This document shows, in pieces, positions 16,009-34,896 of a stretch of DNA of 64,000 nt. Source of the DNA: Streptomyces sp. NBC_00708 (GTDB lineage Bacteria; Actinomycetota; Actinomycetes; Streptomycetales; Streptomycetaceae); NCBI GenBank assembly GCA_036226585.1, contig CP108997.1, forward strand, positions 5,890,001-5,954,000. The letters run 5' to 3'. Made by a program: the position numbers and the translations under genes. The notes beneath the pieces are model-generated. The model did no database searches, was not told the DNA's origin, and saw nothing but the letters and a program-made list of their open reading frames with translations. Position 1 is the first letter of the stretch. Each line of letters opens with the position of its first letter.

Positions 16009-16023
16009 TGCAACTTGTTGACA
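16009..16023 (-). promoter_or_regulatory. Half-site of the cluster motif upstream of the PPTase operon
   Basis: Read leftwards the sequence is TGTCAACAAGTTGCA. It matches the left half TGnCARCnnnnTGCA of the 27-bp motif found before four rightward units of this cluster, but the right arm CGTTG is absent. It contains CAAC-TT-GTTG symmetry. It lies in the 417-base divergent gap between the PPTase (start 15871) and the first regulator (start 16289). The rest of that gap is AT-richer than its surroundings (notably 16085-16225), with no gene that I can see, and must hold both promoters. Confidence 0.45.
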
Positions 16024-16288
16024 GGTGAGGCGGAATGGGTCGCCTTTTTGATGGAGTCTGCCGCTCATCTGGGGGTCTCGGGCAGACGAGACGGCCTCTT
16101 GTTGACTGATTCCAAGCCAGCGAACTAGTGTCTGATGAAGCTTTCTTCAACCTATGTATGAAGAAGTATTTGTCGATTGAACTGTTTTTGGTGAGCGATA
16201 TTTTCGCGTACGCGGCGAAACATTCCGAACGTGATGAGGACGGCCCGCGTGGTGGGAGACGGCTCGCGGGCAGCCGAGGGGGGCACAT

Positions 16289-17065
16289 GTGACGGGTGTG
16301 CAGATCGAGCCACCGGACAAATCCGAAGGTGCTACGGCCGAGGGCCATGCCGCCCACCTGGAGGAGGCGCTGCTCCAGGCCCGCGCCCTGATCGAGTCCA
16401 CGGTGTCCCTGTACCGGCGCCGCCCCGCCGCCCCGGACACGGCGGCGCCCACCGACATCGCCGCGCTCGGTGAGGCCCTGGACCGGATCGTCGGGGGTGC
16501 CCGGCACTCGGTCAGCGTCGCGCTGGCCGGCCCCGGCGAGTTCACGGATTCCGTTCTGCGACTGCTCGCCGCACAGCCGCCCGCGGCCGCTGTCCGGCTG
16601 CTCGGATCCGCCGAGGTCGCCGACGCCTCGTTCGCCGGGCTGCGCCAGCCCCCCGGCCGGCCCCTCGAAGCCAGGGTCTCCGAGAGCGAGTTGCGCGAGA
16701 TCGTCGTGGTCGACGGCGTCGCGGCGCTGGTGCGGGGAGCCGCCCGGAGCGACGGGCAGCAGGCCACCGTCGTCAACGACGTCGCGGCCGTGCGCGCCCT
16801 GGAACTGCTGTTCGCCGGAGCCTGGGCGCGCGGCCGGAGACTCGCCGATCACCTCGGCCTCAGCCCGCGGCTGCGCAGCGAGCTGACCCGCAGCATCCTG
16901 GAACGCCTGAGAGCCGGTCACACCGACGACACGGCGGCTCGCGACCTGAACGTCTCGCTGCGCACCTACCGGCGCCATGTCGCGGAGATCATGCGCGAAC
17001 TGGACGCCAGTTCCCGCTTCCAGGCGGGAGCCCGCGCGGTCGAGCTGGGTCTGCTCTCGGAGTAG
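16289..17065 (+). CDS. LuxR-type transcriptional regulator, first of a tandem pair
   Basis: A 258-residue regulator. The N-terminal 190 residues hold a helical start LEEALLQARALIESTVSLY and an alpha/beta region that I do not recognise as a known receiver or ATPase domain. The C-terminal 65 residues are a LuxR-like helix-turn-helix: AGHTDDTAARDLNVSLRTYRRH followed by VAEIMRELDASSRFQAGARA. There is no phosphoacceptor Asp arrangement typical of response regulators. It is clearly paralogous to the next gene over its whole length. Its position at the divergent hub of the cluster indicates a pathway-specific regulator. Confidence 0.82.
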   Translation: MTGVQIEPPDKSEGATAEGHAAHLEEALLQARALIESTVSLYRRRPAAPDTAAPTDIAALGEALDRIVGGARHSVSVALAGPGEFTDSVLRLLAAQPPAAAVRLLGSAEVADASFAGLRQPPGRPLEARVSESELREIVVVDGVAALVRGAARSDGQQATVVNDVAAVRALELLFAGAWARGRRLADHLGLSPRLRSELTRSILERLRAGHTDDTAARDLNVSLRTYRRHVAEIMRELDASSRFQAGARAVELGLLSE

Positions 17066-17142
17066 ACCGAGCGCTGTCCCCGGCGCGGTCCGTGGCCGGG
17101 ACGGCGCGAGGAGTCAAGTCAACGGGGACGGTGGGATACGAC

Positions 17143-34237: not shown

Positions 34238-34833
34238 TCCGTGGTCTGATCCGGGACCTGCTCCGCCGTCCGGCCGCCGGGATTTTCTTCGGAACCCTTC
34301 CGGCGGCCGTCGACGCGTCGCTTGATCGCGGAGAGAAGGGCGATACGGATCATTCCGCTCGGAATGCGGATCAGGAACCAGTAACGGCCGAAGTTGCGCC
34401 GGGTCCGCTCGTCCGTCGCGTATATCCTGGTCTCGGTCGTCAGGATGCCGGCGGCATAGTGCATATGGAACGCGACCTTGGTGCAGCCCGGTTCCGCATA
34501 GTCCCTGAACACCTCGTGCATCGGCCGGTCCGGGCGCACGGGGCCGGCCTGGGAGCCGATCCCTCCGTAGAGCAACTCCTCGTCGGACAGCTCCAGTACG
34601 GTGTCCCCGCCCATCGCGAAGTCGTCCAGGACCTTCCCGTCGGCCCGCAGCTTGTTCCGGGTGAAGGCGAGGAAGAAGCGCGCCACCGGGGCCTCGCGCC
34701 AGGTCATCTCGCGCGCCGCGCGCAGCACTTCCTCACGGGGTGCCGAAACAGCCACCCAATGCCGTTCACGGAAATGCCATTGCGGCATGTGACGGTCCAG
34801 CAGGGTGGCTTCTGATTTCACGTATCCGGTCAT
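34228..34833 (-). CDS. Conserved SRPBCC-like protein of unknown function
   Basis: A 201-residue protein that I recognise only weakly. The pattern of WHFRERHWVAVSAPREEVLR at the start, then FFLAFTRNKLRADGKVLDDF, ELLYGGIGSQAG, KVAFHMHYAAGILTTETRIY and a C-terminal YWFLIRIPSGMIRIALLSAI helix, suggests a ligand-binding SRPBCC-like fold. No catalytic motif is identifiable. The ATG at 34833 (GAGGAAC upstream) is preferred to a longer start. It is divergent from the giant NRPS gene, sharing the 155-base gap with motif copy D, and overlaps the A-T gene tail-to-tail. This placement implies co-regulation with the cluster. Confidence 0.6.
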   Translation of the reverse strand: MTGYVKSEATLLDRHMPQWHFRERHWVAVSAPREEVLRAAREMTWREAPVARFFLAFTRNKLRADGKVLDDFAMGGDTVLELSDEELLYGGIGSQAGPVRPDRPMHEVFRDYAEPGCTKVAFHMHYAAGILTTETRIYATDERTRRNFGRYWFLIRIPSGMIRIALLSAIKRRVDGRRKGSEENPGGRTAEQVPDQTTDQP

Positions 34834-34869
34834 GTTCCTCACGCTAGCACGCGGCCTCCGCCACACGGG

Positions 34870-34896
34870 TGGCAACTTTCTGCAACGGCCGTTGTC
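34870..34896 (+). promoter_or_regulatory. Cluster motif copy D with promoter of the giant NRPS gene
   Basis: TGGCAACTTTCTGCAACG then GCCGTTGTC: the best copy, with the perfect palindrome CAACGGCCGTTG. The right arm leads into a -35-like TTGTCC; after 18 bases follows a -10-like TAGACA (34914-34919). It sits 92 bases before the NRPS start and 36 bases upstream of the divergent SRPBCC-like gene, so it could serve both. Confidence 0.65.

Follow-up and report, generated by a model that had tools for sequence, protein, structure and literature searches.

Among the cluster-situated LuxR-type activators of Streptomyces, the PAS-LuxR regulators PimM and PteF have a 16-bp palindrome-like operator, CTVGGGAWWTCCCBAG, in the −35 region of several promoters per cluster (PMC9774167, available portion). 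In the gla cluster (cluster 26) of S. globisporus C-1027, an adjacent LuxR pair lies by an ech cassette and a cinnamoyl type II PKS; according to the available portion of PMC9381841, LuxR1 and LuxR2 of cluster 26 are positive regulators, their overexpression raises cluster 26 transcripts, and homologues occur in the skyllamycin, cinnapeptin and atratumycin clusters. The main text of that paper contains none of the strings 'binding site', 'operon', 'palindrom' or 'EMSA'. The cinnamoyl cyclodepsipeptide cluster for atratumycin likewise encodes two LuxR activators, along with an NB-ARC-containing SARP; deletion of atr1 or atr2 abolishes atratumycin, the SARP Atr32 acts negatively on the cluster, and no operator for Atr1/Atr2 was found in the available portion of PMC6835768. 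Published knockouts and overexpression agree in indicating that such LuxR pairs activate their clusters.

The window analyzed here is a stretch of 64,000 nucleotides from Streptomyces sp. NBC_00708. Its gene set looks like a cinnamoyl-lipid peptide cluster: with respect to the defining features taken from PMC9381841 (available portion), the cluster has several KS/CLF genes, an isomerase and an adjacent LuxR pair, and its leftward PPTase and A-T-TE genes resemble the ech cassette of that paper. Judged from the like setting alone, the window's LuxR pair would be homologous to the pair of cluster 26, from which the window's cluster differs in having giant NRPS genes in addition. Compared with the atratumycin cluster, the difference is that the SARP gene has a LuxR-type site of its own. 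By analogy, the system would work like PimM-type activation, its closest working analogue, but it is no member of the PAS-LuxR group: the operator sequence is another one, the regulator genes are in tandem, the operator lies six bases above the −35, and there is no Pfam PAS domain.

Gene units and the regulator pair

Table 1 Features of the cluster (positions in window numbering).
Feature	Position	Strand	Remarks
Leftward PPTase and A-T-TE (echA-like) genes	12235..15899	-	Far side of the 16008-16023 dyad from luxR1
Full dyad ATGCAACTTGTTGACA	16008..16023	.	Between leftward PPTase/A-T-TE unit and luxR1; no coupled −35
Candidate luxR1 promoter TTGACT-N18-TAGTGT	16102..16131	+	78 bp downstream of dyad; by eye
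luxR1, first regulator of the pair, LuxR-type HTH	16298..17065	+	PF00196 just above cut-off; start codon uncertain
luxR2, second regulator, TrmB/PLD-like domain and LuxR-type HTH	17131..17934	+	Start codon uncertain
Copy A	18011..18061	+	Predicted promoter of MCAT/thioesterase unit; operator 18011-18026; −35 TTGCCG 18033-18038; −10 TTGTAT 18056-18061; 17-bp spacer
Unit of copy A: acyltransferase (MCAT) and thioesterase	18267..19915	+	
Copy B	19939..19990	+	Predicted promoter of ACP-KS...MbtH unit; operator 19939-19954; −35 TTGTGG 19961-19966; weak −10 AGCATT 19985-19990
Unit of copy B: ACP, ketosynthase/CLF genes, dehydratases, ketoreductase, DsbA-like isomerase, MbtH	20048..29811	+	Type II PKS unit
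Copy C	29844..29871	+	Predicted promoter of thioesterase-SDR-NRPS unit; operator 29844-29859; −35 TTGCCC 29866-29871; no clear −10
Unit of copy C: thioesterase, SDR, stand-alone NRPS module	29931..34237	+	
Copy D	34870..34921	+	Predicted promoter of giant NRPS; operator 34870-34885; −35 TTGTCC 34892-34897; −10 TAGACA 34916-34921; 18-bp spacer
Unit of copy D: giant NRPS	34989..59780	+	
Second NRPS gene	59796-70037		Crosses window end, after giant NRPS; then ABC exporter

Past the second NRPS gene and the ABC exporter, there are genes for an MMPL transporter and for a polyprenyl synthetase, the latter accompanied by a carboxyltransferase gene, along with SARP genes. Among named records, Streptomyces sp. 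col6 comes closest (98.1% over 12.7 kb). A tryptophan-halogenase-family protein is encoded to the right of the cluster, past two SARP genes (L008:2548-4182). MFS, NanE, DHDPS-family and FCD/GntR genes lie to the left (window 5856-10797), and on the right (L008:4172-15616), the first residues of the predicted proteins resemble, by eye, those of a sialidase, a GntR regulator, parts of transporters and a further DHDPS-family protein; from these two flanks, a sialic-acid catabolism locus may be the place in which the cluster was inserted. The left edge of the window (1614-5183) encodes a B12-binding radical SAM protein and a thiolase.

LuxR2 combines a TrmB/phospholipase-D-like domain (residues 48-192), recognized as a TrmB sensor domain in a structure model, with a C-terminal helix-turn-helix of the GerE/LuxR type. 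The helix-turn-helix of TrmB is N-terminal; LuxR2 differs from TrmB/TrmBL2 in that its helix-turn-helix is C-terminal and of LuxR type, and the N-terminal winged helix-turn-helix of TrmB regulators is absent. By Pfam, neither an autoinducer-binding N-terminal domain nor a PAS domain was detected in LuxR1 or LuxR2, and the N-terminal fold of LuxR2 was modelled as a different one. The recognition helices of the two proteins are nearly alike (SLRTYRR in LuxR1, SVRTYRR in LuxR2). The PimM-type operator was not matched, the conserved sequence here being TGGCAGCTTCCTGNAR. No mention of TrmB was found in the available portion of PMC3466318.

A 16-bp dyad followed by a separate −35/−10 pair

The first-pass annotation had described four copies of a 27-bp motif, starting at 18011, 19939, 29844 and 34870, each upstream of a new unit; all four were confirmed at these positions, and all four precede a rightward unit. 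Its 27-bp consensus, allowing up to 3 mismatches, recovered three of the four copies and nothing in 100 shuffles but missed one copy; counted by hand, mismatches to it number 4 in copy B, 2 in each of A and C, and 0 in D. A consensus fitted to all four copies, TGGCARCWWNYTGMARNKNNCGTTGY, was searched with up to 3 mismatches across the whole 7.65-Mb genome and occurs in six places (two for the backwards control), only the four copies having 0 mismatches. The other two are G000:C1:5970620 (2 mismatches; 80620 in window numbering), located 16.6 kb past the window end ahead of a SARP gene, and G000:C1:626773 (3 mismatches), so that the genome search proposed in the annotation gave no scatter of equally good matches elsewhere. 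A matrix scan adds a site ahead of the polyprenyl synthetase/carboxylase pair; at the site at 77615 (window numbering), a convincing −10 is absent. Judged by these matches, the predicted regulon extends past the window end.

An iterated matrix was built on the own cluster and 30 relative clusters and then applied also to 64 further loci (80 named, minus 15 already in the sample, minus L108, a near-copy of the window), for a total of 95 clusters with LuxR2, 92 with both regulators and 3 with LuxR2 only. Across the 95 clusters, there were 190 matches, of which 165 precede a gene by no more than 700 bp, and 131 distinct promoter-linked sites were left once in-gene sites and repeats had been removed. 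The columns of these 131 sites comprise TGGCAGCTTCCTGNAR, a featureless spacer (17-20), TTG (23-25) and a −10-like block (46-53) that stood outside the matrix; the A+T fraction is 0.55-0.87 at positions 47, 48 and 50-52, compared with a mean of 0.235 at 28-45. The 27-mer consists of two modules, namely, the 16-bp dyad with the invariant core CA-N6-TG and, after six bases, a −35 hexamer TTGYCN. The element GGACWGTT, which in copies A and D is indeed separated from CGTTG by the same 19-bp step, had been taken for the −35; this assignment was rejected because, over the 131 sites, only the TTG and the 46-53 block stand out below the dyad, and the real −35 is TTGYC within the 27-mer, with the −10 about 18 bp beyond it.

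When sites were selected by positions 1-16 alone, TTG begins at position 23 in 100 of 152 sites and at position 22 in 12; in these 12, the TAGACA-like −10 block, as a group, is likewise one base nearer. This joint shift assigns CGTTGYC to the promoter and leaves the 16-bp dyad with CA-N6-TG as the operator. The alternative palindrome GCAACG-NN-CGTTGC (copies C and D) was discarded, its right arm being the −35, which shifts together with the −10. Covariation was tried as proof of the dyad and dropped, given that the two halves do not covary; thus, the case for palindromy is made by the invariant CA/TG and by the symmetric forms. If transcription starts 7 bp past the −10, the dyad centre would be near −50.

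The near-fixed spacing to the −10 would also be compatible with a promoter for an alternative sigma factor, in which TGGCA-N6-TGCA is the sigma recognition element and not an operator, and TGGCA...TTGCA is reminiscent of the −24/−12 boxes of sigma-54. This explanation appears very improbable, given that a separate downstream −35/−10 pair moves as a unit relative to the dyad and that the dyad is found without a −35 upstream of luxR1 and also beside distant homologues. The GG-GC step is 9 here, whereas sigma-54 needs 10, and Streptomyces are not known to have sigma-54; the sigma-54-like reading was considered and set aside.

The supposed half-site at 16009-16023 proved to be a complete 16-bp dyad, 16008-16023, with no coupled −35. 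In relatives, a corresponding dyad, typically GTGCAGCTTGCTGACA, precedes luxR1: a score of at least 12 was found for 73 of 93 luxR1 genes vs. 2 of 54 control intergenic gaps, the latter being shorter than the luxR1 gaps (median 266 vs. 600 bp). The TTGACT-N18-TAGTGT element downstream of the dyad, identified by eye, is presumably a housekeeping-type promoter, and TTGACT elements like that of luxR1 are visible by eye in many relatives. An inverted repeat, GGAAG...CTTCC (window 15977-15997), is located ~10-30 bp upstream of the luxR1-side dyad, and GGAA and TTCC recur near this dyad in many relatives; the repeat is possibly the site of a second regulator.

Co-occurrence of the site with LuxR2

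LuxR2 homologues (E 1e-20 or better) are present in 76 of 392 genus genomes. In 30 relative clusters around such homologues (1.15 Mb), which were picked for having LuxR2, the four-copy matrix produced 43 matches with a score of at least 20, distributed over 23 of the clusters; 37 of the 43 are upstream-intergenic, although such positions make up 7.9% of these clusters, and 60 column-permuted matrices gave 0.13 matches on average and at most 3. A score of 18 with the four-copy matrix is reached by 77 of 94 relative clusters but by none of 20 LuxR2-less ketosynthase clusters (best score 14.0). With the iterated matrix, which was trained on part of the 30 LuxR2 ketosynthase clusters, a site was found within 10 kb of the ketosynthase in 26 of 30 clusters with LuxR2 vs. 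0 of 20 without, where the ketosynthases were at least 65% identical and the 20 controls were hand-chosen from genomes without a LuxR2 match. Four of these controls have a weaker LuxR-type match (38-48% identity), yet no site.

Across the genus, the pattern TGGCANCTTCNTGNAR-N6-TTGY (counts by eye, Fisher tests) occurs exactly in 22 of 76 LuxR2-bearing genomes and in 0 of 316 others; with at most 1 mismatch, the counts are 35 of 76 vs. 13 of 316. The backwards control (7/76 vs. 35/316) is not associated with LuxR2. Some of the exact matches lie apart from any listed LuxR2 (e.g. G069:C1:7321851).

A site follows luxR2 within ~1 kb in 84 of 94 clusters vs. 101 of 1900 random in-cluster windows, the latter including real sites; in 10 of the 94, no site was found in this interval. 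In a stricter count, an operator lies at most 600 bp from the called luxR2 stop codon in 61 of 92 cases, a count affected by sites that overlap the called end of luxR2, compared with 40 of 1204 other genes. At matrix score 20, a site is lacking altogether in 9 of 95 clusters; among these, G360, L173 and L183 contain a one-base-shorter variant, but G255 and L115, each with a close LuxR2, possess no dyad other than the one upstream of luxR1. Six genus loci outside matrix building, which are partly redundant (L210 and L213 have exactly the same sites as the named loci L113 and L136), have the site in five cases, the exception being L209.

In the best reading, the 16-bp dyad is an operator of the LuxR2 family, reused as an activator site above the −35, and we consider it highly probable that the motif acts as a promoter element dependent on an activator, its dyad being bound by LuxR2 alone or together with LuxR1. 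The comparative tests support the earlier suggestion of a dedicated-regulon operator, with the tandem LuxR proteins as candidates to bind it; the predicted operator is, however, 16 bp and not 27 bp long. LuxR2, alone or with LuxR1, would bind TGGCAGC-NN-(G/C)CTGnnR, probably as a dimer and through the C-terminal LuxR-type helix-turn-helix, with the dyad centre ~50 bp above the inferred start and six bases above a poor −35 (TTGYCN). The bound regulator would recruit RNA polymerase to the loading-enzyme, type II PKS, NRPS and precursor-supply units as well as to the SARP gene. The luxR1-luxR2 genes would be transcribed from their own good housekeeping-type promoter, and the dyad upstream of luxR1 probably mediates feedback or else serves the divergent PPTase/echA unit. 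If the cluster's own SARP acts like the negative Atr32, the LuxR site upstream of the SARP gene would amount to a built-in brake.

In the literature searched, which included few subscription journals, we found neither this operator nor its separation from the −35, its reach over the cluster class or its presence near distant homologues. When this literature was searched for the motif strings, the only paper containing one of them was the unrelated PMC10142784 (available portion).

Right-half classes and distant homologues

The left half of the dyad is nearly invariant; the right half, on the promoter side, is variable, and positions 13-16 vary with the downstream gene (repeats retained in the counts). 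GAAA is found ahead of MCAT (27/39), GCAG ahead of ACP (16/21), GTCA ahead of polyprenyl synthetase or carboxylase (10/11), and GCCA (n = 16) ahead of SARP (8) and polyprenyl synthetase (6); GTAG and GAAG precede mixed genes. The right halves of copies A (GAAA) and B (GCAG) are the commonest types ahead of MCAT and ACP genes, respectively, among relatives. Mutual information between bases 14-15 and gene class is 1.06 bits, compared with at most 0.35 in 2000 shuffles (n = 93). For spacer bases 18-19, the association is weak (0.556 vs. a null mean of 0.385), which indicates that common descent contributes.

A rival explanation is that the copies are simply duplications of one promoter, with no special regulator; orthologous promoters do look alike, and the right halves and, weakly, spacer bases 18-19 track the downstream gene. 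However, in the 33 promoters of the MCAT/thioesterase class, spacer positions 17-22 carry 0.0-0.4 bit, whereas right-half positions 14 and 15 carry 2.4 and 2.6 bits, and the motif is absent in 20 of 20 LuxR2-less clusters with the same ketosynthase; we assign this explanation a very low probability.

The near-invariant left half and the variable promoter-side right half could also reflect a LuxR1-LuxR2 heterodimer on asymmetric sites, each protein taking one half and the −35 setting the orientation, with homodimers on symmetric sites. The near-identical recognition helices are compatible with this arrangement, as is the requirement for both atr1 and atr2 (PMC6835768, available portion). Nevertheless, three of the 95 clusters have LuxR2 without LuxR1 in the stretch examined and retain 2-3 sites each, and a degenerate promoter-proximal half is explicable by RNA polymerase contacts, so that we regard the heterodimer reading as unlikely, albeit with an appreciable chance of being correct. 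The reading in which LuxR2 binds the dyad, with or without LuxR1, is preferred.

We further analyzed 40 regions around distant homologues, of which 19 were all the distant matches listed, including a third homologue from the own genome, and 21 were chosen by hand; 15 come from six other families and 25 from the own genus, and none was used in matrix building. Symmetric forms of the dyad, TGGCAGC-NN-GCTGCCA, occur beside the regulator gene. A symmetrised dyad matrix detected 40 sites in 124 kb near the regulators vs. 17 in 649 kb elsewhere, i.e. a 12 times greater density (binomial p = 1e-19), and 2 sites in 381 kb of LuxR2-less ketosynthase clusters. A nearby dyad was found in 35 of the 40 loci (12/15 outside and 23/25 inside the genus). 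In 22 of the 40, the regulator adjoins an oppositely transcribed aldo/keto reductase gene (PF00248 in the own genome); 21 of these 22 have a dyad, for instance TGGCAGCAAGCTGCCA, no further than 400 bp from this gene. Tree building with 79 proteins placed the 17 included proteins that are linked to an aldo/keto reductase in a single group (support 99/97), separate from those of LuxR1 and LuxR2; two rows labelled R1 in this tree were identical to R2 rows through an extraction error.

These loci bear on the possibility that another cluster regulator, such as a SARP, binds the dyad and that the LuxR pair merely travels with it. The cluster does have a SARP gene, and in the atratumycin cluster the SARP Atr32 has a modulating role (PMC6835768, available portion). 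On the other hand, the SARP gene is itself preceded by the site at 80620, and of the 22 distant LuxR homologues that adjoin an aldo/keto reductase gene, 21 have the dyad by that gene; binding by another regulator is accordingly very improbable, and the LuxR proteins are the preferred candidates.

A third regulator homologue is encoded in the own genome (G000:C1:4037642-4039266; L246:10001-11625). Its gene and that of an aldo/keto reductase are transcribed divergently, and the gap between the two contains TGGCAGCAAGCTGCCA, an exact palindrome; cross-talk between this homologue and the cluster regulators is possible. The sequence TGGCAGSWWSCTGCCA has one exact match in the own genome, in this same gap, and four further places with one mismatch (backwards control: one), two of which are in the cluster at 76749 and 77567 (window numbering). 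The dyad TGGCAGCAACCTGACA lies on the minus strand at L007:12749-12764 (window numbering 76749-76764), ahead of the MMPL transporter gene, which runs leftward; TACACT is found at roughly the distance typical of the −10, but a good −35 is absent.

Tentatively, and with somewhat less than even confidence, these observations may be accommodated by an actinobacterial family of regulators that join a TrmB/PLD sensor to a LuxR-type helix-turn-helix and share a common operator. In the older form, a single regulator gene and an aldo/keto reductase gene would be transcribed away from each other, with the dyad in the intergenic interval. In cinnamoyl-lipid clusters, duplication would have given rise to the regulator pair, and copies of the dyad would have been placed at the promoters of the units. 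The promoter-proximal half would then differ by target, GAAR for loading genes, GCAR for ACP-PKS, and GTCA/GCCA for precursor genes and SARP, and would set the strength or timing of each unit, probably via a LuxR1-LuxR2 heterodimer. No description of the TrmB/PLD-LuxR protein family and its aldo/keto reductase locus was found in the literature searched.

The dyad is a candidate sequence address for a type of regulator pair known to switch on cinnamoyl-peptide pathways. Such an address would allow silent clusters to be found, regulons to be drawn, and reporters or activation strains to be designed, and one testable DNA site would connect the TrmB/PLD-LuxR family with the aldo/keto reductase locus.
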